From the NCBI RefSeq assembly GCF_036250065.1, contig NZ_CP109199.1, positions 1,922,001 through 1,986,000 on the forward strand: a stretch of 64,000 bases of DNA, in the 5' to 3' direction. Position 1 is the stretch's first letter, and every line of letters begins with the position of its first letter. Positions 40,762 to 58,394 of this stretch are shown here, in pieces. The position numbers were made by a program, and so were the translations under genes. Below the pieces are notes generated by a model. The model was not told the DNA's origin. It saw nothing but the letters and a program-made list of their open reading frames with translations, and ran no database searches. The stretch is from Micromonospora sp. NBC_01699 (GTDB taxonomy: Bacteria; Actinomycetota; Actinomycetes; Mycobacteriales; Micromonosporaceae).

Positions 40762-41359
40762 CCGCGCCGCGCCACCTCGTCACCGCCGGGCGGCAAGGAA
40801 TCCGGAGTTCCGCGACAACCGCCCGGAAATGCCACCTCCGGCCGACGAGATCAAATTCGATCGGTACGGCGCGGCCGGCGGCCGAGTCGTTGCCCCGTAC
40901 GTCGCCGGAAGTCGGCCCCCACGCACTCGTGATCACCTTCGGCGGCCGGATCGTCCGCGCACCATAATCGAGACTCGTCGGACCGGTTGCATCGGACACC
41001 GGATGCGTCCGTGCTCCCGCTTGACGCGATTTGACGCCTTTGTGGTGGCGGTGGAGTGGGGTGGGCCCGGTCGGCGCCATCGAGGCAGTGGTCTGCGGGG
41101 GGAATTGCGATCCGTCGGTGCGTTTACCGTGCCCCGATCGTCGAGCGAATGGGCCGCATCCTCTCTCGTTCATGCGTAGCCCGCCAAGCGTTCACACTCA
41201 TCTCCACTGACGGTTATCGCCTACTTGCAGTATGCATCTTCGGGGCCGAACCATCCGGTGTTTCCGGTATGTGGCCTATCTGAGTAAAGTCCCATGACTC
41301 GCAGCTATGCAAAGCCATGCCCCTTCGGGTGTCGGGATGGCGGGACGGAGCAATCTCGC
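40762..41359. other. 598-bp gap without a supportable gene
   Basis: No RBS-led frame resembles a protein on either strand. A GCATC-N8-GATGC inverted repeat occurs near 40990-41008. Base composition drops near 41180-41290, where the promoter of the downstream gene must lie. Confidence 0.35.
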
Positions 41360-41740
41360 ATGACTGCTGACCGCGGACCGGTCGCGCAGTTCCGTATATA
41401 TCGGACCTTACAAGGGATGATCATTTGGCGTCTGGTGGCGTCCAACAATCGGGTGCTCGGCATGTCGGCGGCCACATTCTCCGCGATGGACGGTGCGGTC
41501 GCCGCAGTACGCCAGATCCGCAGAGAGGCGCGCCTTGCCTTGATCGAACTGGTGCACGTGCCCGCCCCCGGCCAGGATTGGACGTGGCGGATGTTCGACG
41601 AGGGCGGGGAACTGACGGCGCTCTCTCCCCGCAGCTACAAGAGGCGTATCGACTGCCACCACGCACTCGAACGGTTCCGGATGGCCGCGCCGGAGGCCGT
41701 GGTGGACTCGGCCGTGGGCCGGCGGGGTCGCTTCTGGTGA
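41360..41740 (+). CDS. Hypothetical protein resembling DUF1508 repeats
   Basis: The 126-residue protein begins MTADRGPVAQFRIYRTLQGM and shows two similar beta-beta-alpha units: QFRIYRTLQGMIIWRLVASN with SAMDGAVAAVRQIRREARLA, then DWTWRMFDEGGELTALSPRS with RIDCHHALERFRMAAPEA. This pattern resembles the YegP/DUF1508 fold, whose function is unknown. GGAG lies 9 nt before the ATG. The downstream neighbour is the LPXTG gene of the Pst locus, over 200 bp away, so co-transcription is uncertain. Confidence 0.6.
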   Translation: MTADRGPVAQFRIYRTLQGMIIWRLVASNNRVLGMSAATFSAMDGAVAAVRQIRREARLALIELVHVPAPGQDWTWRMFDEGGELTALSPRSYKRRIDCHHALERFRMAAPEAVVDSAVGRRGRFW

Positions 41741-41836: not shown

Positions 41837-41843
41837 GTTCACC
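41837..41843 (+). promoter_or_regulatory. Candidate PHO-box unit upstream of the Pst locus
   Basis: GTTCACC matches the core of actinobacterial PhoP direct-repeat units. It lies 107 bp before the LPXTG gene that opens the phosphate locus. Only one good unit is visible, so this is weak evidence for PhoR-PhoP control. Confidence 0.3.
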
Positions 41844-41949: not shown

Positions 41950-42786
41950 GTGCCCCGCAGGCTGCCGAAGCCATCCCGGATACGACTCGCCCGATCGTTC
42001 GGAGCCGCGACCATCGCCGCCGGGTTGAGCATCGGCGTCGCAGCCGTGCCGGTGCTGGTCGCTCCCGCGGGTGCGGCCCCGGTGGGCACGATCACCCTCG
42101 AACCGGTCAGTGGCGCCCTCACCGACGCGCCGTTCGCCGCCTTCACCGCCAGCGGCCCCTGTCCGGCCGGGTTCGGCACCGCGGCCGACATGTTCCTCTA
42201 CAACGACGCGGTGCAGCCGTTCAGCCTGATCTCCCTCGCCGGCCCCGACCTGGACCAGGCACCGGTGAGCGGCACGATCAGCGGATCCCTCGCCGATCTG
42301 GCCCAGGCCGGCGGCGTGCTCGACCTGCCCGAGGGCGCCTACGTGCTTGAGCTGACCTGCTACAACGACGAGTTCAGCGTGGCTCCGGACACCCTCACGG
42401 GGCGGATCGCGATCGCCGACGGACAGTGGCAGGTGGTGACGGGCGGCGGCCCGACCGGTACGCCGACCGCTACCCCCACCGGTACGCCCACCGCGACCCC
42501 GACCGGTACGCCGACCGACTCGCCCAGCCCGACTCCCACCTCGACGCCGACCGCGACCCCGTCGGCGACGCCGACCGAGTCACCGGACCCGACCCCCACG
42601 GAGAGCGACTCCCCGACGCCGACCCCGACCGAGACCGACGACCCGCCCGGGTCGCTGCCACAGACCGGTAGCAGTGGTCTGGACACCTACCTCTACCTGG
42701 CCCTGGTGCTGATCGCGTCCGGCGCGACGCTGATGCTCTGGGACCGCCGGCAGCGGCTGCTCGCCGCCGCCCCGACCGGCCACTGA
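41950..42786 (+). CDS. LPXTG surface protein at the head of the Pst operon
   Basis: A long purine-rich RBS (AGGAGGAGAAGG) precedes the GTG. The 278-residue product has a Sec signal peptide (ARSFGAATIAAGLSIGVAAV, cleavage near AGA). A beta-rich domain of about 110 residues follows with two Cys (SGPCPAG and LTCYND). Then comes a Thr-Pro-rich wall-spanning stalk of about 60 residues (TPTATPTGTPTATP units). The sorting signal is LPQTG, a hydrophobic helix and WDRRQRL. It should be covalently anchored to peptidoglycan by a housekeeping sortase. It lies 8 bp before pstC, suggesting it presents or channels phosphate at the wall. Confidence 0.85.
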   Translation: MPRRLPKPSRIRLARSFGAATIAAGLSIGVAAVPVLVAPAGAAPVGTITLEPVSGALTDAPFAAFTASGPCPAGFGTAADMFLYNDAVQPFSLISLAGPDLDQAPVSGTISGSLADLAQAGGVLDLPEGAYVLELTCYNDEFSVAPDTLTGRIAIADGQWQVVTGGGPTGTPTATPTGTPTATPTGTPTDSPSPTPTSTPTATPSATPTESPDPTPTESDSPTPTPTETDDPPGSLPQTGSSGLDTYLYLALVLIASGATLMLWDRRQRLLAAAPTGH

Positions 42787-42794
42787 GGTCCGGC

Positions 42795-43898
42795 ATGAGC
42801 AGTGCCGAGCACAGGACCGAGGACCAGACCGGGTACGAGGACCGAGCCGGGTACGAGGACCGGGCCGCCGGGGAAGATGGGCAGGTCGGGGACGACGGGC
42901 AGGTCGGGGACGAGCCGCGTCGCCGTACCGGCGGTGGGGCCGTACTGGTCGATCGGTTGTTCCGGGCCGGCGCGCGTACGGCGGGCGCCCTGATGTTGCT
43001 GGTCATGGGGGGCATCGGGGCGTTCCTGGCGGTGCAGGCGGTGCCGACACTGCGCAACTACGGGTGGCGGTTCTTCACCGAGAGCGACTGGAACCCGGAG
43101 CGCAACGTCCTCGGCATCGCCGCGGTGGTCGTCGGCACCGTACTCGTCGCCGCCGTGGCGATCGTGGTCGCCTTTCCGCTGGCCCTGCTCACCGCGCTCT
43201 ACATCACCGAGTACGCCCCCCGCGGGCTCCGCCGGGTGCTGGTCTCCGCGGTGGACCTGATGGCGGCGGTTCCCAGCGTGGTCTACGGGCTGGTCGGGTT
43301 GGCGTTCTTCCAGCCGCAGCTGATCGGGATCGCGCGATGGCTGCACTCGTACGGCCGCTGGTTGCCGGTCTTCGAGGTCGGCACCGCCGAGGACCCGGTC
43401 GACCCGAACGCGGCCATCTGGGCCGAGAGCCGCTACACCTCGTCGGCGTTCATCGCCGGGGTGGTCGTCTCGCTGATGGTGCTGCCCATCGCCTGCGCGG
43501 TCATGCGTGAGGTCTTCTCCCAGGCCCCGCAGGGCGAACGGGAGGCGGCGTGGGCGCTGGGTGCCACCAGGTGGGGTGTGATCAGGACGGTCGTGCTGCC
43601 GTTCGGGCGCGGCGGCATCATCGGCGGGGCGATGCTCGGGCTCGGCCGGGCCCTCGGCGAGACCATCGCCGTCGTCTTCATCATCTCGACCGCCTTCGAG
43701 GTGAAGCTCCGGATCCTGGAGAACGGCACGATCACCACCTCGTCGCTGATCGCGGTCCGGTTCGGCGACGCGGACGCCGGACAGCTCTCCGCCCTGCTGG
43801 CCGCCGGGCTGGTGCTCTTTCTCATCACACTCGCCGTCAACACGCTCGCCGCCGTCCTGGTCTCGCGCAGCCGCAGCGGCGCCACGACCGAGATCTGA
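42795..43898 (+). CDS. pstC: Phosphate ABC transporter permease PstC
   Basis: The 367-residue protein is the PstC-type inner-membrane subunit: ALMLLVMGGIGAFLAVQAVP (helix 1), FFTESDWNP (typical PstC loop), AIVVAFPLALLTALYITEYA, VDLMAAVPSVVYGLVGLAFF and the EAA coupling loop EREAAWALGATRWGVIRTVV, followed by GGIIGGAMLGLGRALGETIA. It has an unusual acidic N-terminal extension of about 45 residues containing two pairs of short direct repeats (GYEDRA twice, GQVGDD/GQVGDE). It imports phosphate with PstA and PstB. It starts 8 bp after the LPXTG gene. Confidence 0.93.
   Translation: MSSAEHRTEDQTGYEDRAGYEDRAAGEDGQVGDDGQVGDEPRRRTGGGAVLVDRLFRAGARTAGALMLLVMGGIGAFLAVQAVPTLRNYGWRFFTESDWNPERNVLGIAAVVVGTVLVAAVAIVVAFPLALLTALYITEYAPRGLRRVLVSAVDLMAAVPSVVYGLVGLAFFQPQLIGIARWLHSYGRWLPVFEVGTAEDPVDPNAAIWAESRYTSSAFIAGVVVSLMVLPIACAVMREVFSQAPQGEREAAWALGATRWGVIRTVVLPFGRGGIIGGAMLGLGRALGETIAVVFIISTAFEVKLRILENGTITTSSLIAVRFGDADAGQLSALLAAGLVLFLITLAVNTLAAVLVSRSRSGATTEI
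42831..42914 (+). repeat. Two pairs of 18-bp tandem repeats in the pstC N-terminus
   Basis: GGGTACGAGGACCGAGCC is followed directly by GGGTACGAGGACCGGGCC (42831-42866). GGGCAGGTCGGGGACGAC is followed by GGGCAGGTCGGGGACGAG (42879-42914). Both pairs are in frame and differ by a single base each, implying recent duplication within the acidic extension. Confidence 0.85.
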
Positions 43899-43921
43899 CC
43901 GGGACGGGACGGGGAAACAGG

Positions 43922-45097
43922 GTGCAGACCGAAATGATTCCGCCACCGGTGGAGCACGACCTCCGGCCGATCGACCACACGGCCGAAAACCCGGCGCTGG
44001 TCGGCCCGCCGGTCGACGACACGAACGACGAGGGTGGCGACGACCGGAACATCGACGAACCGCGCCGACGGCTGACGCCCCGCACCCTGGACGACAGACT
44101 GTCCGTGTTCGGCTCGGGGCTGGCCGCGTTGGCGCTGGCCTGGGTGCTGTTCCAACGCCTGCTGCCCACCGACGGGGCGGTCGGGTTCGCCCTGCTCTGG
44201 CTCGGCACCTTCCTGCTGCTGTACGCGGCGGTGACGGCCATCCGGCATCCGGGCACGGTCATCGCCGACCGGCTCGCCGCCGCGGTGGTGCACGCCGGTG
44301 CCGTGACCGTCGGCGCGACGCTCTGCCTGGTGATCGTCTACACCGTGTGGCGGGGGCTGCCGGCGCTGCGGTACCTGAACTTCTACACCGAGGACCTCTC
44401 GGCGGCGGGGCCGTTGGCGCCGCTGGACATGGGCGGTGCGCTGCACGCCATCGTCGGCACGCTGGTCGAGATCGGCATCGCGATCGCCATCACGCTGCCG
44501 CTCGGCGTGGCGACCGCCGTGTTCATGACCGAGGTGGGCGGCCGGTTCAGCCGGCTGGTCCGGACCGTGGTCGAGGCGATGACCGCGCTGCCGTCGATCG
44601 TCGCCGGCCTGTTCATCTACACCGTGCTCCAGGTGACCCTGGGCTTTCCCCGGTCCGGGCTGGCCGCCTCGCTGGCGATCTCGGTGATGATGCTGCCGAT
44701 CATCGCCCGCGCCGCGGACGTGGTGCTGCGGGTGGTGCCCGGCGGGCTGCGCGAGGCGAGCCTGGCCCTCGGTGCCTCACAGTGGCAGACGGTGTGGCGG
44801 GTGGTCCTGCCGACGGCCCGCCCCGGGCTGGCCACCGCCCTGATCCTCGGTACCGCGCGCGGCATCGGGGAGACGTCGCCGGTGCTGCTCACCTCGGGCG
44901 CCTCGAACTACCTCAACGTCAACCCGGTGGACAGTTCGATGAACTCGCTGCCGCTGTACGTCTACTCACTCGTACGCAGCGGCGAGCCGGCGTACATCAG
45001 TCGGGCCTTCGGCGGCGCCGCGCTGCTGCTCGTGCTCGTGCTCGCCCTGTTCGTGGTGGCCCGGCTGGTGGCGGCCCGGCGGTCGGGCACGCGGTGA
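43922..45097 (+). CDS. pstA: Phosphate ABC transporter permease PstA
   Basis: The 391-residue protein is the second Pst membrane subunit. An acidic cytoplasmic N-terminus of about 60 residues is followed by two helices (LAALALAWVLFQRLLPTDGA region) and the conserved permease core: GALHAIVGTLVEIGIAIAIT, LPLGVATAVFMTEVGGRFSR, TALPSIVAGLFIYTVLQVTL, the EAA loop LREASLALGASQWQTVWRVV, and ATALILGTARGIGETSPVLL. GTG 43922 was chosen; an ATG four codons later is an alternative. It lies 23 bp after pstC and is co-transcribed. Confidence 0.93.
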   Translation: MQTEMIPPPVEHDLRPIDHTAENPALVGPPVDDTNDEGGDDRNIDEPRRRLTPRTLDDRLSVFGSGLAALALAWVLFQRLLPTDGAVGFALLWLGTFLLLYAAVTAIRHPGTVIADRLAAAVVHAGAVTVGATLCLVIVYTVWRGLPALRYLNFYTEDLSAAGPLAPLDMGGALHAIVGTLVEIGIAIAITLPLGVATAVFMTEVGGRFSRLVRTVVEAMTALPSIVAGLFIYTVLQVTLGFPRSGLAASLAISVMMLPIIARAADVVLRVVPGGLREASLALGASQWQTVWRVVLPTARPGLATALILGTARGIGETSPVLLTSGASNYLNVNPVDSSMNSLPLYVYSLVRSGEPAYISRAFGGAALLLVLVLALFVVARLVAARRSGTR

Positions 45098-45126
45098 GGC
45101 GACCCAACCCATCTCAAGGAGGAACG

Positions 45127-46791
45127 ATGACAACCCCGACCCGATCCGACGCCGCCGGAGGGCGACCGCCCCGACGGCGCGCCGCGCGGGTGCTGGCCGC
45201 GGGAGCGGCGCTGCTGATGGCGGTGGTCGCACCGGCCGCGCCCGCCCTGGCGGTGCCGTACGAGCAGGTGGAGGGGACCGGCTCGACCTGGAGCGCGAAC
45301 GCGTTGCAGCAGTGGGTGACGAGCGTGCAGGCGACCGGGAACCGGGTCGTCTACACCGCCAACGGCTCGTCCGCCGGACGCCGTGACTTCAGCAACTCGC
45401 AGAGCGACTTCGGGGTCTCCGAGATCCCGTACCAGACCCAGCCGGACCCGATCACCGGTGTGGTCGAGGACGCCCGCCGGCCGTTCGCGTACATGCCGAT
45501 CGTGGCCGGTGGCACCTCGTTCATGTACCACCTCGAAGTCGGCGGCAAGCTCTACCGGGACCTGCGGCTGTCCGGTGAGTCGATCGTCGGGATCTTCACC
45601 AACAAGATCACGAAGTGGAACGACCCGCAGATCACCCGGGACAACAACGGCAAGGCACTGCCCGCTATCGACATCGTGCCGGTGGTCCGGTCCGACGGCT
45701 CCGGCACCACCGCCCAGTTCGCGCTCTGGATGGACAAGCGGTACGGCTCCCAGTGGCGCGCGTACTGCGGCTGCCAGGGGCTGACGTCGTACTACCCGCG
45801 CAAGGGTCGGCAGGTCGCGCAGAGCGGTTCGGACAACGTGGCCAACTACGTCGCGGCCCGGTCCGGCAACGGGACCATCGGCTACGTCGAGTTCTCCTAC
45901 GCGCGGAACAAGAACTACCCGGTGGCGAAGATGCTCAACCAGGCCGGTTACTACGTCTCGCCGACCGACTACAACGTGGCCGTGGCGTTGCAGCAGGCCC
46001 GGATCAACACCGACCGGAGCAACCCGCGCGAGTACCTGACCCAGGTGCTCGACGGGGTCTACACCAACGCCGACAAGCGCGCCTACCCGCTGTCGTCGTA
46101 CTCGTACATGATCCTGCCGGTCGGGGCCGACGACCGCCGGATCACGCCGGGACGGGCCAGGGCCCTCGCCGACTTCGCGTACTACTCGATCTGCGAGGGG
46201 CAGCGCAACGCCGGACAGCTCGGTTACTCGCCCCTGCCCCGCAACCTGGTGCAGGCCGCGTTCGACCAGATCGCCCGGATCGCGAAGCTCGCCCCGGAGG
46301 ACCGGCCGGACAACAACTTCGCCAACTGTCCGAACCCGACCTTCGACCCGCGCAACCCGGCCGTCAACAAGCTCGCCCAGGACGCTCCCGCCCCACCGGA
46401 GTGCGACAGGCAGGGCCAGGGACCGTGCTCGGGCAACGGCAACAACAACGGCGGTAACAACAACGCGAACAACAACGGCGGCAACAACAACGCCAACAAC
46501 AACGGCAACAACAACGGTGCCGGGCCGAACGCCACCACGCCACCGACGGCCGCCCCGGTCGACACCGACGGCGACGGGATCGCCGACGTCGACCCGGAGT
46601 CGGGTCAGCCGATCCTCGCCGGTGGTACCAACAACGAGCTCACCGGCGCCGCCACCGAACTCGCCGCCTTCCGACCCGACGGGATGTCCCGGGCACTGGC
46701 CGTGCTCGCCGCCGGGCTGCTGCTCCTGGTCGTCCTGCTGCCCGGACTGGTGTCCCGCGCGGTGGCCCGGCGACGGGAGGCGGGGCGATGA
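45127..46791 (+). CDS. pstS: PstS-type phosphate-binding protein with C-terminal membrane anchor
   Basis: AAGGAGG fixes the start. The 554-residue product has a signal peptide (RVLAAGAALLMAVVAPAAPA) without a lipobox Cys. A PstS domain follows (about 45-400): EGTGSTWSANALQQWVTSVQ, GSSAGRRDFSNSQSDFGVSE, FTNKITKWNDPQITRDNNGK, VVRSDGSGTTAQFALWM and NGTIGYVEFSYA. These include the phosphate-ligating Ser-Gly-Thr segments. After an Asn-Gly-rich linker (about 437-464) and an Asp-rich segment (DTDGDGIADVD) it ends in a membrane helix and RRREAGR. Thus it is tethered by a C-terminal helix rather than a lipid, unlike standard PstS. Confidence 0.9.
   Translation: MTTPTRSDAAGGRPPRRRAARVLAAGAALLMAVVAPAAPALAVPYEQVEGTGSTWSANALQQWVTSVQATGNRVVYTANGSSAGRRDFSNSQSDFGVSEIPYQTQPDPITGVVEDARRPFAYMPIVAGGTSFMYHLEVGGKLYRDLRLSGESIVGIFTNKITKWNDPQITRDNNGKALPAIDIVPVVRSDGSGTTAQFALWMDKRYGSQWRAYCGCQGLTSYYPRKGRQVAQSGSDNVANYVAARSGNGTIGYVEFSYARNKNYPVAKMLNQAGYYVSPTDYNVAVALQQARINTDRSNPREYLTQVLDGVYTNADKRAYPLSSYSYMILPVGADDRRITPGRARALADFAYYSICEGQRNAGQLGYSPLPRNLVQAAFDQIARIAKLAPEDRPDNNFANCPNPTFDPRNPAVNKLAQDAPAPPECDRQGQGPCSGNGNNNGGNNNANNNGGNNNANNNGNNNGAGPNATTPPTAAPVDTDGDGIADVDPESGQPILAGGTNNELTGAATELAAFRPDGMSRALAVLAAGLLLLVVLLPGLVSRAVARRREAGR
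46430..46525 (+). repeat. Asn-rich repeat tract inside pstS
   Basis: AACAAC-type codons alternate with GGC/GCC to encode repeated NNGGNNNANN units forming a flexible linker before the membrane anchor. The tract is repetitive and may vary in length. Confidence 0.8.
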
Positions 46792-49319
46792 CCCGCCGCC
46801 GCACGACCACTGTCGCGTACCCCCGCCGAGCCAGCGCCGCGCTGGTGCTGGCCATCCTCGCAGCGCTGGTGGTCGCACCGGGCATCGCGGACCGGCCGGC
46901 AACGGCCGAGCTCGCCACCGCCGCCCGGGAGCAGACCCGGCAGATCCAGCGCGGCGACAAGGGGCCGCAAACGGCGACCGTACGCGTCTCGACCACCGAG
47001 GGCCTGATCAACCGGCAGGTGCTCCGGCTGAGCTGGTCCGGGCTGGTGCCGAGCCACCGCCTCCCGATCGTCACGGTGCCGCAGAACGAGGCGGTGCCGT
47101 ACACGATGGAGTACCCGGTCGTGATCTTGCAGTGCTCGAAGCCGGAACCGGCCCGGGAGGACTGCTACTTCAACCGGACCATGGCCAACGACAGCTCGAA
47201 CGCCTCCTACTGGGACGCCCTCCAGCCGGAGCAGCAGCGCGGGTTGGGCTGGCGGCCGTCGTTCCGGGCGGCCAACCGGGAAACCCCGTACGCACCGACG
47301 GAGCAGCCGTCCGACTTCGGCACCTCGAACTTCGCCGGCAACACGATGGTGGAGCCGACCGGTCCGGACGGCACCCGCAGCGACGTCCGGTTCGAGGTAC
47401 GTGACCAGGTCACCACGCCGAGCCTCGGCTGCTCCGCGAGCCGGAAGTGCTCGCTGGTGGTGATCCCGGTGATGGAACTCGTCTGCGCACCGGACGCCGC
47501 TGCGCCATGCTCGGCCGGTCCGACCGGCCCGGTGGGCGGCCCGAACAACAGTCCCGAGTACAACGAGACGCTCGCCCCGGGCGGTTGGGCGTTGGAGTCG
47601 AACTGGCGCAACCGGTTCGTCGTACCCATCGAATTCGCCCCGGCGGACTCGACCTGCGCGACCACCGACCCCCGTCCGCAGCGGGCGTTGGTCGGGGCGG
47701 AGACCGCCGACCTCGCGCTGCGCCGCTGGACGCAGGCCATGTGCGTGGACCGGGAGGCACCCCGGCTGGCCCACGTACGGCAGAGCGAGGAGGTGGCGCG
47801 CAACCTGCTGCTCAACCGCAGCGGGGAGGAGTACGGCGCCGACGCGGCACTGGTCACCCGACCGGTGACCGGCTCACCCCGACCACTCGCGCACGCCCCG
47901 GTGCTCGCCACCGGGGTCGCGGTGGCGTTCGCGGTCGACGTACGGGTCGGCGACGACGCACCGTACGAGCTGCGGGACCTGCGACTGAGTCCACGCCTGC
48001 TGGCGAAGCTGATGACCCAGTCGTACCAGGGGACGTTCTTCTTCAACCAGGCCCATCCCGCGGTCAGTGCCAACCCGGTGACCCTCTTCCACGACAAGGA
48101 GTTCCTGGCGCTCAACCCGGACTACCCGCAGGACGCCGCCGGCGGGCCGACCAACGGCAACAACGCCAGCGGATCACAGGGCCTCACGGTCATCACCAAC
48201 GACTCGGACGCCTACTACGAGCTGACCCGGTACGTCACCGCCGACCCGGAGGCCGTCCGCTGGCTCGGCGGCGAGGCGGACGAGTACGGCACCACGGTCA
48301 ACCCGGTCTACCGGGGCACCCCGTTCCCGTCGGCCCGGTTCGAACTGCGCGACGAGTGGGTGCCCGAGGGTGTGCCGTGCGGCCCGCTGCCCGGCCTGAC
48401 CCGGGTCCAGCACGTCGCGCCGAGCCTGGAGGGCGGGATCTACTCGATCGCCGACTCGCAGGGACTGAACCAGGAGTGCGTCAACACCAGCCCACTCGGC
48501 GAGACGCCGAACTGGGTGTGGTCCAAACCGAACCGGCAGTACTTCCCGAGCCGGGTCTACCTCACCGTCACCTCGGTCGCCTACGCCGAGGCGTACGGGC
48601 TGCCGATGGCCCGGTTGCAGTCCGGACGCGGCGCCGACGGCCAGCGTACGTTCGTCGGGCCGACGCCGGCGGCGATGGCCGAGGCGCTGCGGCACATGGT
48701 GGTCGACGACAGCTCCGGAACCCGGCGGGTCGACCACGCGGCGCTGCCGGCGACCGCCTACCCGGGCACGCTGCCGATCTACCTGGCGGTGCCGACCGCC
48801 GGCCTGCCCGACGACGCCGCCGCCGACTACGCGGAGTTCGTGCGCCGCGCGGTCAGCGCCCGGCACCAGACCCTCGGCGGCGCGATCGGCCAGTTGCCAC
48901 CCGGTTACCTGCCGCTTCCGGACGACCTGCGCCGGCAGGCGCTCACCCTGGCCGACGCGGTGGCCCGGCAGGCGGCCGACCCCGATCCGACCACCCCACC
49001 GCCGACCACACCCGCCGCGAACGGCGGCAACGGCACCCAACCGCCGGCCTCGGTACCGACCCCGGGCAGCACACCGAGCCCGTCGCCCACGCCCAAGGCC
49101 AGCGTCACGCCCTCGGCCGGCACCCCGCAGCCGCAGGTCCGGGCGCTGACCCGGACCGACACGTCGGCGCTCGGCGCCTGGGCGCTGCCGGCGGTCCTCG
49201 GCACCGGGCTGCTCGTGCTGCTGGTCATCCCGTTCGTCCTGCTCGCCGCCCAGCCGGACCATCCGGTACGGCGCCTCGTCCGGTCCGCCGGCCGGGTGCT
49301 GCGGCGAACGGGTTCGTGA
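46788..49319 (+). CDS. Large secreted, membrane-anchored binding-protein-like protein of the Pst locus
   Basis: The 843-residue protein overlaps pstS by 4 nt (ATGA). It has a signal peptide (ASAALVLAILAALVVAPGIA). A beta-rich domain follows (about 45-400; QTATVRVSTTEGLINRQVLR, four or more Cys). A second region (about 370-710) resembles a binding-protein fold: LSPRLLAKLMTQSYQGTFFF, DKEFLALNPDYPQ, TVITNDSDAYYELTRYVTAD, TLPIYLAVPTAGLPDDAAAD. After a Pro-Thr stalk it ends in a membrane helix (LPAVLGTGLLVLLVIPFVLL) and a basic tail. I infer a surface phosphate-capturing or accessory role from context. The domain assignment is tentative. Confidence 0.72.
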   Translation: MTRRRTTTVAYPRRASAALVLAILAALVVAPGIADRPATAELATAAREQTRQIQRGDKGPQTATVRVSTTEGLINRQVLRLSWSGLVPSHRLPIVTVPQNEAVPYTMEYPVVILQCSKPEPAREDCYFNRTMANDSSNASYWDALQPEQQRGLGWRPSFRAANRETPYAPTEQPSDFGTSNFAGNTMVEPTGPDGTRSDVRFEVRDQVTTPSLGCSASRKCSLVVIPVMELVCAPDAAAPCSAGPTGPVGGPNNSPEYNETLAPGGWALESNWRNRFVVPIEFAPADSTCATTDPRPQRALVGAETADLALRRWTQAMCVDREAPRLAHVRQSEEVARNLLLNRSGEEYGADAALVTRPVTGSPRPLAHAPVLATGVAVAFAVDVRVGDDAPYELRDLRLSPRLLAKLMTQSYQGTFFFNQAHPAVSANPVTLFHDKEFLALNPDYPQDAAGGPTNGNNASGSQGLTVITNDSDAYYELTRYVTADPEAVRWLGGEADEYGTTVNPVYRGTPFPSARFELRDEWVPEGVPCGPLPGLTRVQHVAPSLEGGIYSIADSQGLNQECVNTSPLGETPNWVWSKPNRQYFPSRVYLTVTSVAYAEAYGLPMARLQSGRGADGQRTFVGPTPAAMAEALRHMVVDDSSGTRRVDHAALPATAYPGTLPIYLAVPTAGLPDDAAADYAEFVRRAVSARHQTLGGAIGQLPPGYLPLPDDLRRQALTLADAVARQAADPDPTTPPPTTPAANGGNGTQPPASVPTPGSTPSPSPTPKASVTPSAGTPQPQVRALTRTDTSALGAWALPAVLGTGLLVLLVIPFVLLAAQPDHPVRRLVRSAGRVLRRTGS

Positions 49320-49350
49320 CGGCTGATCGCCACCCGCCCGCTTCACGGCG

Positions 49351-49400
49351 CGTCGCCGCCGATCGGCTCGCCCGGAGTCGCCGCCGATCGGCTCGTCCAG
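49351..49400 (+). repeat. 25-bp tandem duplication before the sortase-like gene
   Basis: GTCGCCGCCGATCGGCTCG occurs at 49352-49370 and again at 49377-49395. The second copy ends 5 nt before the AAGGAG ribosome-binding site at 49401. Confidence 0.85.
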
Positions 49401-49411
49401 AAGGAGCTTCC

Positions 49412-50308
49412 ATGGCCGGTACCACCGCGCCCGTACAGGATCGAGCCGGGGCCGACCAGCGGCCCCGGCCGGTGAACGCGCCCGGCGGGGTGGCCATCTC
49501 CGCCATCCACGCGTTACTGCTGGTGGCGCTGCTGACCTTCGGGTTCGTCGGCTACCTGGTCGGGCTGAGCCCGTTGCAGCAGCTCCGGGCCCAGGACAAC
49601 CTCCACGACCGGATCCGGGGCGAACTGGCCCAGGCCACCACCCCGTTCGGCGGTGCTATCGAGCCGGGCACCCCGGTCGCGGTCATCACCATCGACGCGG
49701 TCGACCTGCGCGCCGTGGTGGTCGAGGGCACCTCCTCGGCGGACCTGCTCGCCGGCCCCGGACACCGCCGGGACACGCCGCTGCCGGGCCAGGCCGGCGT
49801 TTCCCTGCTGTACGGCCGCGCCGGCACCTTCGGTGCGCCGTTCCGGCGGGTGCCGGACCTGCCGGCGGGCACCCCGATCGAGGTGGTGACCGGACAGGGC
49901 GCCTTCACCTTCCGGGTGACCGGCTCCCGGCGGGACGGTGACCCGGTCCCTGCGCCGCTGGCCGCCGGTGCCGGGCGGCTGACCCTGGTCACCGCCGAGT
50001 CCACCCGCCCCCTCACCGCGGTCAGTACGGTCTTCGTCGACGCCACCCTGGACGGTCCGGCCCAGCCCGCGCCAGCCGGTCGGCCGGCGCTGATCCCGTC
50101 CTACGAGCGCGCCCTGCGCTCGGATTCCACCGCCGGCTTCCCGCTGGTGCTCTGGCTCCAGGCGCTCGCCCTGGCCGCCGCCGGGCTCACCTGGAGCCGG
50201 CACTACTGGGGGCGCTGGGAGACCTGGATCGTCGGCAGTCCGATCGTGCTCGCCTGCGTGTGGCAGACCTACGAGGCGGCCGTACGGCTGCTGCCCAACC
50301 TGCTCTGA
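49412..50308 (+). CDS. Sortase-fold membrane protein lacking catalytic residues
   Basis: AAGGAG 6-7 nt before the ATG fixes the start of this 298-residue protein. An N-terminal helix (ISAIHALLLVALLTFGFVGY) precedes a sortase-like barrel. LRAVVVEGTSSADLLAGPGH (about 99-118) and RRDTPLPGQAG match class D/E/F sortases. Where a sortase has the catalytic His (AGHRTTYGAPF), this protein has YGRAGTFGAPF (Arg 136). Where it has the catalytic Cys (TLVTC), it has TLVTA (Ala 195). The Arg strand is also altered. Two further C-terminal helices follow (about 233-290). It is therefore a probable pseudo-sortase, perhaps a scaffold for the LPXTG and PstS-like proteins encoded upstream. Confidence 0.8.
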   Translation: MAGTTAPVQDRAGADQRPRPVNAPGGVAISAIHALLLVALLTFGFVGYLVGLSPLQQLRAQDNLHDRIRGELAQATTPFGGAIEPGTPVAVITIDAVDLRAVVVEGTSSADLLAGPGHRRDTPLPGQAGVSLLYGRAGTFGAPFRRVPDLPAGTPIEVVTGQGAFTFRVTGSRRDGDPVPAPLAAGAGRLTLVTAESTRPLTAVSTVFVDATLDGPAQPAPAGRPALIPSYERALRSDSTAGFPLVLWLQALALAAAGLTWSRHYWGRWETWIVGSPIVLACVWQTYEAAVRLLPNLL

Positions 50309-50331
50309 CCGGCCGACGTACGCCACGACGA

Positions 50332-50361
50332 GGGGCCGGGCGGCGGATGCCGCCCGGCCCC
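50332..50361. terminator. Strong bidirectional terminator of the Pst operon
   Basis: GGGGCCGGGCGGC and GCCGCCCGGCCCC form a perfect 13-bp stem with a GGAT loop. It lies 23 bp after the sortase-like gene and about 37 bp before the end of the convergent PstS-like gene. Confidence 0.85.
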
Positions 50362-50398
50362 CCTGGTCAGGCTGTGTTTCCCGTCGTCAAGGGGTGGT

Positions 50399-51442
50399 TC
50401 AGGGGATGATGACGGGCACGCCGCAGCTGCCGGCCGCCGCGGTCTTGGGCAGGACCGTGAAGCCGTTCGAGGTGATGGTGGAGTCGGCGGTGGCGCTGGT
50501 GCACAGGAAGCTGGTCGAGTTGAACGCGGCGCCCACGGTCGCGGCCCGCGAGGTCTTGATCACGTTGTAGAGCAGCCGGCTGACGTTGAAGTTGCCGGTG
50601 GTCGTACGCAGGGCGATGACCTTCTGGCCGCCGACCACCGGCACGTTGACGTTGTAGCGGCCGACCGAGAACGGCGCGATGGCGTTCGCGTCCGCGTTGA
50701 TCGGGGCCGGGTCGTGCTCCTGCGGGTCGTCGTTGACGCAGTAGCTGCTCGGGCTCTCGCTCTTGGTGATGACCTGGGCCTCGGTCAGACCGATCTGCTC
50801 CAGGAAGAACTTGCGGGTGCCGGAACCCGGCTGCGGCAGCAGCGGGTTGATGGTCGCGGTGCTGGCCCCGGCGACGAAGTCGCTCCACTGGTTGGCGGTC
50901 GCCTGGCACTGGTAGATGGAGACCAGGCGGGCCACGGTGAAGACGAGGCTGGCCGGGGCGTTGGTGGCCGGGCTGCCGTCGCCGTTGGCGCGGGCGACGG
51001 CGATCGCGAGCCCGTCACGGGCGATCGGGTACCAGCTCGTCCCGGACGTCCCCGGCGTGCCGGAGTGACGCGCGTAGTCGACGTAGTCGTTCTCCACCCC
51101 GCCGCCGGGGCTGTTGGCGGCGGCGACCAGCGCGGTCAGGCCGGCACCGGAGCCGTTCGGCCGGGCGATGCCCGGGGCCGGCTGGCCCGCCTGGACGATG
51201 ATCGGCGAGGTGCCGGTGGCGTCCCAGGAGGCCAGCCGCCGGGTGGGCGCCGGGGACTGGGCGTTGTAGGCGGTGGCCAGCCCGTTCAGGAGGAACTGGC
51301 TGGTGTCCGAGCCAACGCCGGCGAAGTCGTCGTTGTCCGGGGTGAAGGACGGGTCGGCCTGGGCGCCGGTGGCGGCGAACGCCAGCGACATGGCAACGGC
51401 GGCGAACGCCGCCCCGGCTGCCTTGAGGACGGTCTTGCGCAT
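50399..51442 (-). CDS. Second, secreted PstS-like substrate-binding protein
   Basis: GGAGG before the ATG fixes the start. The 347-residue product has a signal peptide (KTVLKAAGAAFAAVAMSLAF, cleavage near AQA-DP) without a lipobox. The mature protein matches PstS-like binding proteins: FAGVGSDTSQFLLNGLATAY, RPNGSGAGLTALVAA (Ser-Gly-Ser phosphate loop), YVDYARHSG, LAIAVARANG, QPGSGTRKFFLEQIG. It lacks any membrane anchor, unlike the other two binding proteins of the locus, so it may act as a diffusible scavenger. It is transcribed toward the main operon and divergently from pstB. Confidence 0.85.
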   Translation of the reverse strand: MRKTVLKAAGAAFAAVAMSLAFAATGAQADPSFTPDNDDFAGVGSDTSQFLLNGLATAYNAQSPAPTRRLASWDATGTSPIIVQAGQPAPGIARPNGSGAGLTALVAAANSPGGGVENDYVDYARHSGTPGTSGTSWYPIARDGLAIAVARANGDGSPATNAPASLVFTVARLVSIYQCQATANQWSDFVAGASTATINPLLPQPGSGTRKFFLEQIGLTEAQVITKSESPSSYCVNDDPQEHDPAPINADANAIAPFSVGRYNVNVPVVGGQKVIALRTTTGNFNVSRLLYNVIKTSRAATVGAAFNSTSFLCTSATADSTITSNGFTVLPKTAAAGSCGVPVIIP

Positions 51443-51640
51443 GTGCGGGATACCTCCGCGGTTCTTCGATCAGCCTCGATCTGGGGCCGCGTTCAGCCCA
51501 CCAGTCCGTCACCGGGCGTGCCACCAACGTCACATAGCCACTACCTGCGCGCGGCACGGCCGCTGCGTTAACAGGCACCCAATCCACCAAATCGGTCAAC
51601 TGATCCGGCCGGTGACGCCGCCATTTCTCGGAGTGAATGC

Positions 51641-51673
51641 GTTCACCCGACCGTTGCCGTCGATGCCTAGGGT
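51641..51673 (+). promoter_or_regulatory. Candidate PHO box and -10 region before pstB
   Basis: GTTCACC (51641-51647) and GTTGCCG (51653-51659), 12 nt apart, resemble PhoP direct-repeat units. A TAGGGT -10-like box follows at 51668-51673. The spacing would place the repeats over the -35 region, as in activated pho promoters. The match is only partial. Confidence 0.35.
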
Positions 51674-51733
51674 CGGATGGCCCATGTCCGGCGAGTACGC
51701 CACCCGGTGGGTCGGCGTTCGGAGGAGTCGCAG

Positions 51734-52633
51734 GTGTCAGCGAGTACAGGTTCGGATGTCACGGTGCAGCTCGACCGGAGGCTTACCGGCTCCTCGGTCG
51801 CGGTGAACGAACCGGGGACCGACGACACCGCCGTCGACCCGGCCGCCGCCGGCCGCCCCGGCGCCACGCTGCGTACCGAGCGGCTCTCGGCCTGGTTCGG
51901 TACGCACAAGGTGCTCGACCGGGTGAGCCTGACCATGCCCGCCGGAGTGGTGACCGCCCTGATCGGCCCGTCCGGCTGCGGCAAGTCCACCTTCCTGCGG
52001 ATCCTGAACCGGATGCACGAGCTGGTGCCGTCGGCGTCCCTCGCCGGTGAGGTTCAGCTCGACGACCTGGACATCTACGGGGCCAGCCAGCCCCTGACCG
52101 AAACCCGGCGGCGGATCGGCATGGTGTTCCAGAAGCCGAACCCGTTCCCGACCATGTCGATCGCGGACAACGTCACCGCCGGACTCAAACTCACCGGCCG
52201 ACGCGCGGGGCGCGGCGAGAAGGCGGCGCTGGTCGAGGAGTGCCTGACCCGGGCGGGACTCTGGCGTGAGGTCAAGGACCGGCTCCGGCAACCCGGCGGC
52301 ACCCTGTCCGGGGGACAGCAGCAGCGTCTCTGCATCGCCCGCTCGCTCGCCGTACGGCCCGACGTGCTGCTGATGGACGAGCCCTGCTCGGCACTCGATC
52401 CGACCTCGACCCGGCGGGTGGAGGAGACGATCGCCGACATCCGCTCGACGGTCACCGTGGTCATCGTGACGCACAACATGCAGCAGGCCGCCCGGGTGTC
52501 CCAGCAGTGTGCGTTCTTCCTCGCCGAGGAGGGCAAGCCCGGTCACGTCGTCGAATCCGGCGACACCCGGCAGATGTTCGGCGCCCCCCGGGACCCGCGT
52601 ACGGCCGACTATGTCAACGGACGCTTCGGCTGA
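51734..52633 (+). CDS. pstB: Phosphate ABC transporter ATPase PstB
   Basis: GGAGGAG 6 nt before the GTG fixes the start. The 299-residue protein carries a 40-residue N-terminal extension, then a PstB ATPase: LRTERLSAWFGTHKVLDRVS, Walker A GPSGCGKSTFLRILNRMHEL, Q-loop GMVFQKPNPFPTMSIADNV, signature TLSGGQQQRLCIARSLAV, Walker B VLLMDEPCSALDP and switch His IVTHNMQQAARVS. The NRMHEL and QKPNPFP segments are diagnostic for PstB. It is separated from pstCA by the minus-strand PstS-like gene and has its own promoter region. No phoU follows. Confidence 0.93.
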   Translation: MSASTGSDVTVQLDRRLTGSSVAVNEPGTDDTAVDPAAAGRPGATLRTERLSAWFGTHKVLDRVSLTMPAGVVTALIGPSGCGKSTFLRILNRMHELVPSASLAGEVQLDDLDIYGASQPLTETRRRIGMVFQKPNPFPTMSIADNVTAGLKLTGRRAGRGEKAALVEECLTRAGLWREVKDRLRQPGGTLSGGQQQRLCIARSLAVRPDVLLMDEPCSALDPTSTRRVEETIADIRSTVTVVIVTHNMQQAARVSQQCAFFLAEEGKPGHVVESGDTRQMFGAPRDPRTADYVNGRFG

Positions 52634-54636: not shown

Positions 54637-54729
54637 GGTCGAGAGGCGCTGCAACGGGCGAAGACGCCCGCCACGCTCGACCGGGGATTCAATCCTGGCT
54701 GCAAGGGCGCCTCCGTTGAACAGCGGAGG
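54637..54729 (+). ncRNA. S-adenosylhomocysteine (SAH) riboswitch controlling metH
   Basis: The aptamer matches the SAH riboswitch. P1 pairs GGTCGAG (54637-54643) with CTCGACC (54676-54682). The conserved AGGCGCTGCAAC (54644-54655) leads into a P2 hairpin (CGGGCG/CGCCCG, 54655-54670). GCGCCT (54707-54712) forms the pseudoknot with AGGCGC. Immediately after, CCTCCG (54710-54715) can instead pair with CGGAGG (54724-54729), which is the ribosome-binding site of metH. SAH binding should hold GCGCCT in the pseudoknot and free the RBS, giving an ON switch at translation. This class is known upstream of metH and ahcY. Confidence 0.9.
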
Positions 54730-54734
54730 TGCCA

Positions 54735-58394
<3,660 letters not shown>

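Follow-up and report, generated by a model that had tools for sequence, protein, structure and literature searches.

A conserved actinobacterial pst locus encoding additional PstS-fold proteins and a predicted pseudo-sortase

Introduction

Positions 1,922,001 to 1,986,000 of an 8.28-Mb contig of Micromonospora sp. NBC_01699 (64,000 nt; this whole stretch of DNA is called the window below) contain genes for a Pst-type phosphate importer together with genes for surface proteins and for a sortase-like protein, termed pseudo-sortase here. The closest described transporter is PstSCAB (E. coli, PDB 9k3s/9k3x; M. tuberculosis, PstS1 and PstS3), with which the locus shares homologues of PstC, PstA, PstB and PstS, the PstS fold, aligned charged residues of the permease subunits and, in related loci, PHO boxes. 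It differs from PstSCAB in that PstS is held by a linker and a transmembrane (TM) helix instead of a lipid and mostly carries Glu at the place of Asp56, and in the presence of two additional PstS-fold proteins (one of them apparently ligand-free), the pseudo-sortase, and a coexisting ordinary pst locus.

The described relatives of the pseudo-sortase are the class E sortases (PDB 5go5/5go6; SrtE1, 5cuw), which it resembles by sequence match, both in its best NCBIfam model and in the PDB chains. In contrast to these enzymes, the family has Cys and Arg at the catalytic positions in 0/90 sequences and has lost the His in 88/91; it also has a second hydrophobic helix and an LPN-type C-terminus and is linked to pst genes rather than to LPXTG proteins.

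Two further systems are related in part. Over 91% of WxL domains are reported to occur in Firmicutes (PMC9772566), and the Csc clusters of Bacilli combine CscA (DUF916), CscC (WxL), and CscD (LPxTG) (Siezen 2006, PMC1534035). Loci related to ours, not the window itself, likewise encode DUF916/WxL-interacting proteins (WxLIP) and a large Ig-repeat protein with a WxL-type C-terminal domain and a DxR motif, sometimes with an LPxTG protein; here, however, these are actinobacterial and joined to a Pst transporter and a pseudo-sortase, and, judging from the consensus, the second WxL motif seems to have been lost. For phosphate scavenging in Cutibacterium, it has been put forward that PstSCAB is fed by surface proteins of the LPxTG type (PMC9723661); there, LPxTG phosphatases act with an ordinary PstSCAB-PhoU; the part of that paper available to us mentions neither a pseudo-sortase nor extra PstS-fold proteins. 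The locus described below is real, ordered, and widely conserved, and it is undescribed in the open-access literature that we searched in part on Pst and sortases, WxL, pseudo-sortases, wall-anchored PstS, and Nocardioides PHO boxes, a scope to which most subscription journals do not belong.

Results

An earlier note, made from the letters of the window alone, had proposed a wall-spanning phosphate-capture locus of eight genes, and this gene grouping was confirmed, with all eight genes where they had been placed. On the plus strand, a gene for an LPQTG surface protein with a signal peptide, one domain, a Thr/Pro-rich stalk and a sorting signal (41950..42786) is followed by pstC (42795..43898), pstA (43922..45097), a gene for a tethered PstS (45127..46791), a gene for an 843-residue protein, named Big (46788..49319), and the pseudo-sortase gene (49412..50308). 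Signal peptides and TM helices were assigned by reading and hydrophobicity. The distances between these six genes, which had been given as 93 bp or less with one 4-nt overlap, were remeasured as 8, 23, 29, -4 (an ATGA overlap), and 92 nt. The gene for a soluble, secreted PstS-fold protein, SbpM (50399..51442), and pstB (51734..52633, plus strand) come next in line as proposed, but SbpM is encoded on the minus strand.

The grouping is far beyond chance, as judged by linkage counts. We assembled 95 loci. One is the window, 15 came from relatives, and 79 were the best of the 380 matches obtained by scanning one genome per species with one conserved peptide pattern; Nocardioides is over-represented in this set, and the titles of the best 79 all name actinobacteria except for one "uncultured bacterium". 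As the gene caller used for relatives was crude and missed the LPQTG, PstS and sortase-like genes of the window itself, core genes were counted as open frames within 11 kb of Big that matched hidden Markov models (HMMs) built from the first loci with a score of at least 150 (SbpM, at least 40). The complete seven-gene core of pstC, pstA, tethered pstS, Big, pseudo-sortase, SbpM, and pstB was present in 75 of the 95 loci, all chosen by Big. Individually, PstC was found in 85, PstA in 87, PstS in 90, the pseudo-sortase in 90, SbpM in 88, and PstB in 82 loci, and the missing genes mostly fall past the ends of contigs or fragments; L085, L092, and L113 are possible exceptions for PstB. Among 61 genomes (our own and relatives), 17 gave matches to Big, four of which (G003, G019, G026, and G034, the last with pstS alone on a short contig) were weak matches to ordinary pstS genes and were dropped.

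Since these loci had been chosen by Big, sampling was repeated with the pseudo-sortase as the query. Of 98 genomes sampled from the class, 18 (our own among them) gave strong matches, above 130 bits. Outside our own genome there were 21 such places, of which 20 were fetched with their flanks and one, on a 3.5-kb contig, was not counted; pst genes lay beside the pseudo-sortase in 19 of the 20, and the remaining locus touches a contig end. Consistent co-occurrence of the surface genes with pstCAB across actinomycetes, on which the earlier note had staked its proposal, was thus borne out in both directions (75/95 complete, 19/20 reciprocal).

The genes are also closely coupled. At the junction of PstS and Big in 69 of 79 loci, and at that of Big and the pseudo-sortase in 60 of 65, the stop codon is part of an in-frame ATGA or GTGA (ATGA alone, 43/79 and 34/65). 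Among other called genes, this was the case at 106 of 481 stops (25 ATGA, 81 GTGA). In the window, the first junction is ATGA and the second an in-frame GTGA with an ATG further on that has a better ribosome-binding site, so the count for Big and the pseudo-sortase may overstate the true starts.

PstC and PstA pass the NCBIfam equivalog cut-offs (TIGR02138, 251.7 bits against 196.45; TIGR00974, 210 bits against 193.45) and thereby belong to PstSCAB by that test. PstC retains an Arg and a Glu aligned with residues 237 and 241 of E. coli PstC, and PstA retains an Arg and a Glu aligned with the E. coli chain. In PstB, Walker A, the signature and Walker B are intact by reading. The tethered PstS lies far above the Pfam cut-off (PF12849, 142 against 27 bits), also matches PstS chains in the PDB, and has a 179-residue tail made up of an Asn/Gly-rich linker and a C-terminal TM anchor predicted from hydrophobicity. 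We take T10, S38, D56, R135, S139, G140, and T141 (E. coli numbering, counted along the PDB chains) to be the phosphate-ligand positions of PstS. In an alignment of 101 rows with 10 to 13 gaps per column, the tethered proteins have Thr or Ser at T10 in 87 of 88 cases, Ser at S38 in 82 of 88, and Gly at G140 in 91 of 91; S139 is Ser in 82 and Ala in 9, and T141 is Thr in 60, Ser in 17, and another residue in 14. The phosphate site of the tethered PstS thus appears to be largely kept.

The two further binding-protein-like products differ in this respect. Structure prediction and a fold search gave a whole PstS fold for residues 294 to 730 of Big, which sharpens the earlier description of this protein as binding-protein-like; the fold searches were filled by this domain, and the Cys-rich beta N-terminal domain (about residues 45 to 294) drew no assignment from them. 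Big ends in a C-terminal TM helix. Aligned with hhalign, Big of the window is without the GSS, Asp56, and SGT residues of the PstS phosphate site; some relatives have an Asp near the Asp56 place. With the phosphate-ligand motifs lost, Big is unlikely to carry phosphate, and its proposed part as a tethered receptor passing phosphate on is disfavored. SbpM also has a PstS fold and keeps the anion motifs (GSGAG and GSGT); Ser takes the position of Asp56, and there are additional Arg residues that do not vary. It is fused to Ig-like Big_3_5 repeats in all four Nocardioides proteins scanned (L041, L047, L075, and L086), and long SbpM tails occur in further Nocardioides loci.

The pseudo-sortase belongs to the sortase family (PF04203, 42.6 bits against a cut-off of 26.6; PDB sortases, E = 3.2e-19). 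Its best NCBIfam model is class_E_sortase, with 55.4 bits against a cut-off of 160. The sortase domain is flanked by two hydrophobic helices, and a C-terminal [LM]xPN[LVI]x tail follows the second helix in 80 of 92 sequences (LLPNLL in the window, 50288-50305). Across 92 aligned rows, taken from 90 loci, the column of the catalytic Cys holds Ala 56, Ser 15, Gly 14, Val 3, Thr 2, and gap 2 times, and that of the catalytic His holds Arg 80, Lys 8, His 3, and gap 1 times; none of 90 has Arg at the column aligned with the catalytic Arg of a PDB sortase, the nearby columns holding 7 and 8 Arg. By comparison, ordinary sortases matched by the same profile kept the Cys in 8 of 8 and showed the His pattern in 6 of 8, four further sortases of our own genome being unmatched by the profile and outside this comparison. 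Judged by these residues, the sortase-like protein is predicted to be catalytically dead.

The LPQTG protein is a less constant partner. Its anchor scores above the NCBIfam cut-off (TIGR01167, 21.2 against 15.9 bits) and below that of Pfam (12.7 against 20). A search limited to the strand of the core and to 3 kb around it found LPxTG-type open frames in about 10 of the 95 loci (14 were flagged, four of them false signals inside Big), compared with 90 of 95 for the pseudo-sortase. A wall-anchored LPXTG protein therefore cannot be an obligatory first station for phosphate, and the pairing of LPXTG proteins with the pseudo-sortase was rejected as a general rule; the pseudo-sortase accompanies PstS and Big instead. 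Since our genome has six sortase-domain genes besides two pseudo-sortases, the LPQTG protein has candidate enzymes.

Recurrent neighbors are Ig-repeat proteins with a WxL-type C-terminal domain, membrane proteins of the WxL-interacting (DUF916) type, and small anchored proteins. Pfam searches at E values up to 0.01 recognized WxLIP in 8 of 16 chosen members and WxL in 9 of 18. Our own HMMs, for which members of these same loci were used, detected the two together in 22 of the 95 Big loci; of the 20 pseudo-sortase-chosen loci, 8 gave a match to WxLIP and 13 to the WxL profile, in which Ig repeats are included. Elsewhere in our genome, three places (L118, L119, and L120; G000:C1:3307498, 6940606, and 7672485) gave further WxLIP matches, one above the Pfam cut-off, and two have a WxL-type neighbor.

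The sequences upstream of the related loci are consistent with control by phosphate. The PhoP site consists of two 11-nt units (PMC7866108, PMC2605767), and the S. coelicolor pstS repeats read gttcacccggc and gttcatttacg (PMC3004843). Of 80 loci, 28 had a paired PHO-box score of at least 15 in the region preceding the first core gene, against 3 of 107 control upstream regions; in 26 of the 28 the match lies on the sense strand, 47 to 184 bp before the HMM start. The same score was significant in 3 of 4 ordinary pst loci. A prior-free search for enriched 7-mers placed CGTTCAC on top (31/81 loci, 2/110 controls), and GTTCACC was found in 30 loci and 4 controls. Paired units with 11-nt spacing were present in 27 of 81 loci and in none of 110 controls. 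Twenty-two of these 27 loci are from genera that we take to be Nocardioidaceae, and the others are from Actinophytocola (two), Nanopelagicales, Cellulomonas, and one unplaced actinobacterial metagenome-assembled genome. The phosphate role suggested in the earlier note fits these repeats.

Our genome carries a second full copy of the system (L018, G000:C1, at about 196-212 kb), with WxL and WxLIP genes downstream and, upstream of pstC, a homologue of the LPQTG protein (E = 9e-15) that ends in a TM helix without LPXTG. An ordinary pstSCAB lies at 7.52 Mb. Of the 25 genomes searched in which the system occurs, 24 have at least two pstC genes above the cut-off, some of these genomes being drafts in which a given pstC and the extended locus lie on different contigs; in G032 the second pstC is broken over frames. 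Five genomes without the extended system had one pstC each. Big and the pseudo-sortase of the window are closest to Actinophytocola/Actinokineospora loci (L038-L040 and L081), which have the same gene order with an inverted SbpM, and the nearest relatives of its PstC, PstA, PstS, SbpM, and PstB are mixed. For L018, all seven genes are closest to loci of our organism's own family. The two copies probably have different histories.

Discussion

We estimate a probability of about 60% that the locus encodes a second Pst importer of the phosphate-starvation type, specialized for work at the cell surface. The best reading of its parts is a tethered module of three PstS-fold proteins with a pseudo-sortase scaffold and with phosphate, or a near relative, as the probable ligand. 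SbpM would capture the ligand, either phosphate or a closely related phosphate-containing anion, within the zone of the wall, and the tethered PstS would hand it to PstCAB. Big, presumably ligand-free, and the pseudo-sortase would form a membrane scaffold that keeps the receptors near the permease and docks wall proteins where such proteins are present. Going one step further, tentatively and at less than even odds, we propose a phosphate-starvation machine of the cell surface with the conserved pseudo-sortase as its structural hub. No longer joining proteins to the wall, the pseudo-sortase would hold the three PstS-fold proteins around a dedicated PstCAB and, in many lineages, WxL-type wall proteins as well. 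Phosphate could then be gathered across a thick wall and passed to a permease separate from the housekeeping Pst.

Several results weigh against a phosphate importer of this kind. Two window proteins miss their best NCBIfam models: PstS reaches 187.3 of 205 bits (TIGR00975), and PstB 326.5 of 343.2 bits (TIGR00972), a score which, with its ATPase motifs intact, points to a divergent PstB. In the tethered PstS family, the Asp56 column holds Glu in 59 of 89 cases, Asp in 27, and Ser in 3, and the Arg135 column holds Arg in 70 of 91, His in 18, and Gln in 3; the ligand may therefore differ. The opposite-strand SbpM gene sets pstB apart in the window, which probably places pstB outside the same simple transcription unit. 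The PHO box 107 bp upstream of the LPQTG gene is, by reading, a half-site (a single GTTCACC, 41837..41843, plus strand), with P = 0.54 for the two-unit score against shuffles; the pair preceding pstB (51641..51662, plus strand), one good and one weak unit, gave P = 0.07. The PHO-box score of L018 is at background level, and with 22 of the 27 paired-unit loci in one family, these cases are not independent. A core gene is absent despite available sequence in L020 (PstB), L071 (SbpM), and L116 (pseudo-sortase, 3 kb). Finally, WxL and WxLIP were absent from the whole window at an E value of 1e-5, so the window itself does not belong with the Csc/WxL clusters.

The alternative that survives best, although we consider it unlikely, is an importer of the phosphate response that takes up a phosphate ester, a phosphodiester, or another oxyanion instead of free phosphate. 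Such a substrate would explain why an ordinary PstSCAB is retained, and the genomes with at least two pstC genes (24/25) agree with it, as do the exchanges at Asp56 and Arg135 in the tethered PstS and the Ser and extra invariant Arg residues of SbpM. The retention of most of Thr10, Ser38, Ser139, and Gly140 and of the aligned charged residues of PstC and PstA speaks for free phosphate. Neighboring genes point both ways: a gene of the inositol-monophosphatase family (102.8 bits with PF00459 for the single one scanned) forms a cluster of 8 members, 7 of which, one a doubtful frame, lie no more than 1.5 kb upstream of pstC, but it is confined to 8 of the 95 loci, all from Nocardioides (e.g., L065:4932-5747), and no other phosphatase appeared among the representatives of the 30 largest neighbor clusters, few of which were scanned.

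It is improbable that the locus encodes mainly a surface sensor or a wall-remodeling complex of phosphate-starved cells, for example one replacing phosphate-rich wall polymers, with transport as a secondary matter. Many of the parts are surface proteins, Big appears to have no ligand site, and related loci contain WxL and WxLIP modules besides the pseudo-sortase; a transglycosylase-like gene (SLT_2 in the one scanned; e.g., L106:15928-16749) was found in 18 loci, in 13 of them within 600 bp after pstB. Against this reading, pstC, pstA, and pstB occur in 85, 87, and 82 of 95 loci, the absences lying mostly at contig ends, and PstB of the window has ATPase motifs that read as intact. A chance neighborhood of unrelated surface genes near a pst operon is highly improbable, as the two-way linkage, the conserved start-stop overlaps, and the conservation of the dead sortase contradict it, even if the extra surface genes and their order vary between lineages.

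If the surface-specialized Pst importer proposed here is real, the best-studied phosphate importer has a second architecture, which strong pseudo-sortase matches place in 18 of the 98 genomes sampled from the class. A sortase family predicted to be catalytically dead would gain a defined genetic context, and actinobacterial WxL-type surface proteins would be tied to a nutrient transporter. How thick-walled bacteria move scarce phosphate from the outside to the membrane would become testable.

Other features of the locus and its surroundings

Upstream of the LPQTG gene, the window encodes a small DUF1508 (YegP-like) protein (41294..41740, plus strand; PF07411, 26.0 bits, cut-off 22), which is likely a cytosolic accessory. 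Of the 95 loci, 32 have a DUF1508 relative on the strand of the operon and no more than 1.5 kb from it; the five ordinary pst loci fetched have none. In Streptomyces, Kitasatospora, and Catenulispora, two such genes are at times found in tandem. A scan for sigma-70 promoters gave a single match, 3' of pstB, and none at the start of the operon.

In five loci from Streptomyces and Kitasatospora (L097, L102, L107, L109, and L111), the operon is preceded, at a distance of a few kb, by a long open frame with an ABC-ATPase match (190 to 197 bits with the PstB model). Further along the window, outside the system, a long open frame (54729-58394) reads as a B12-dependent methionine synthase.

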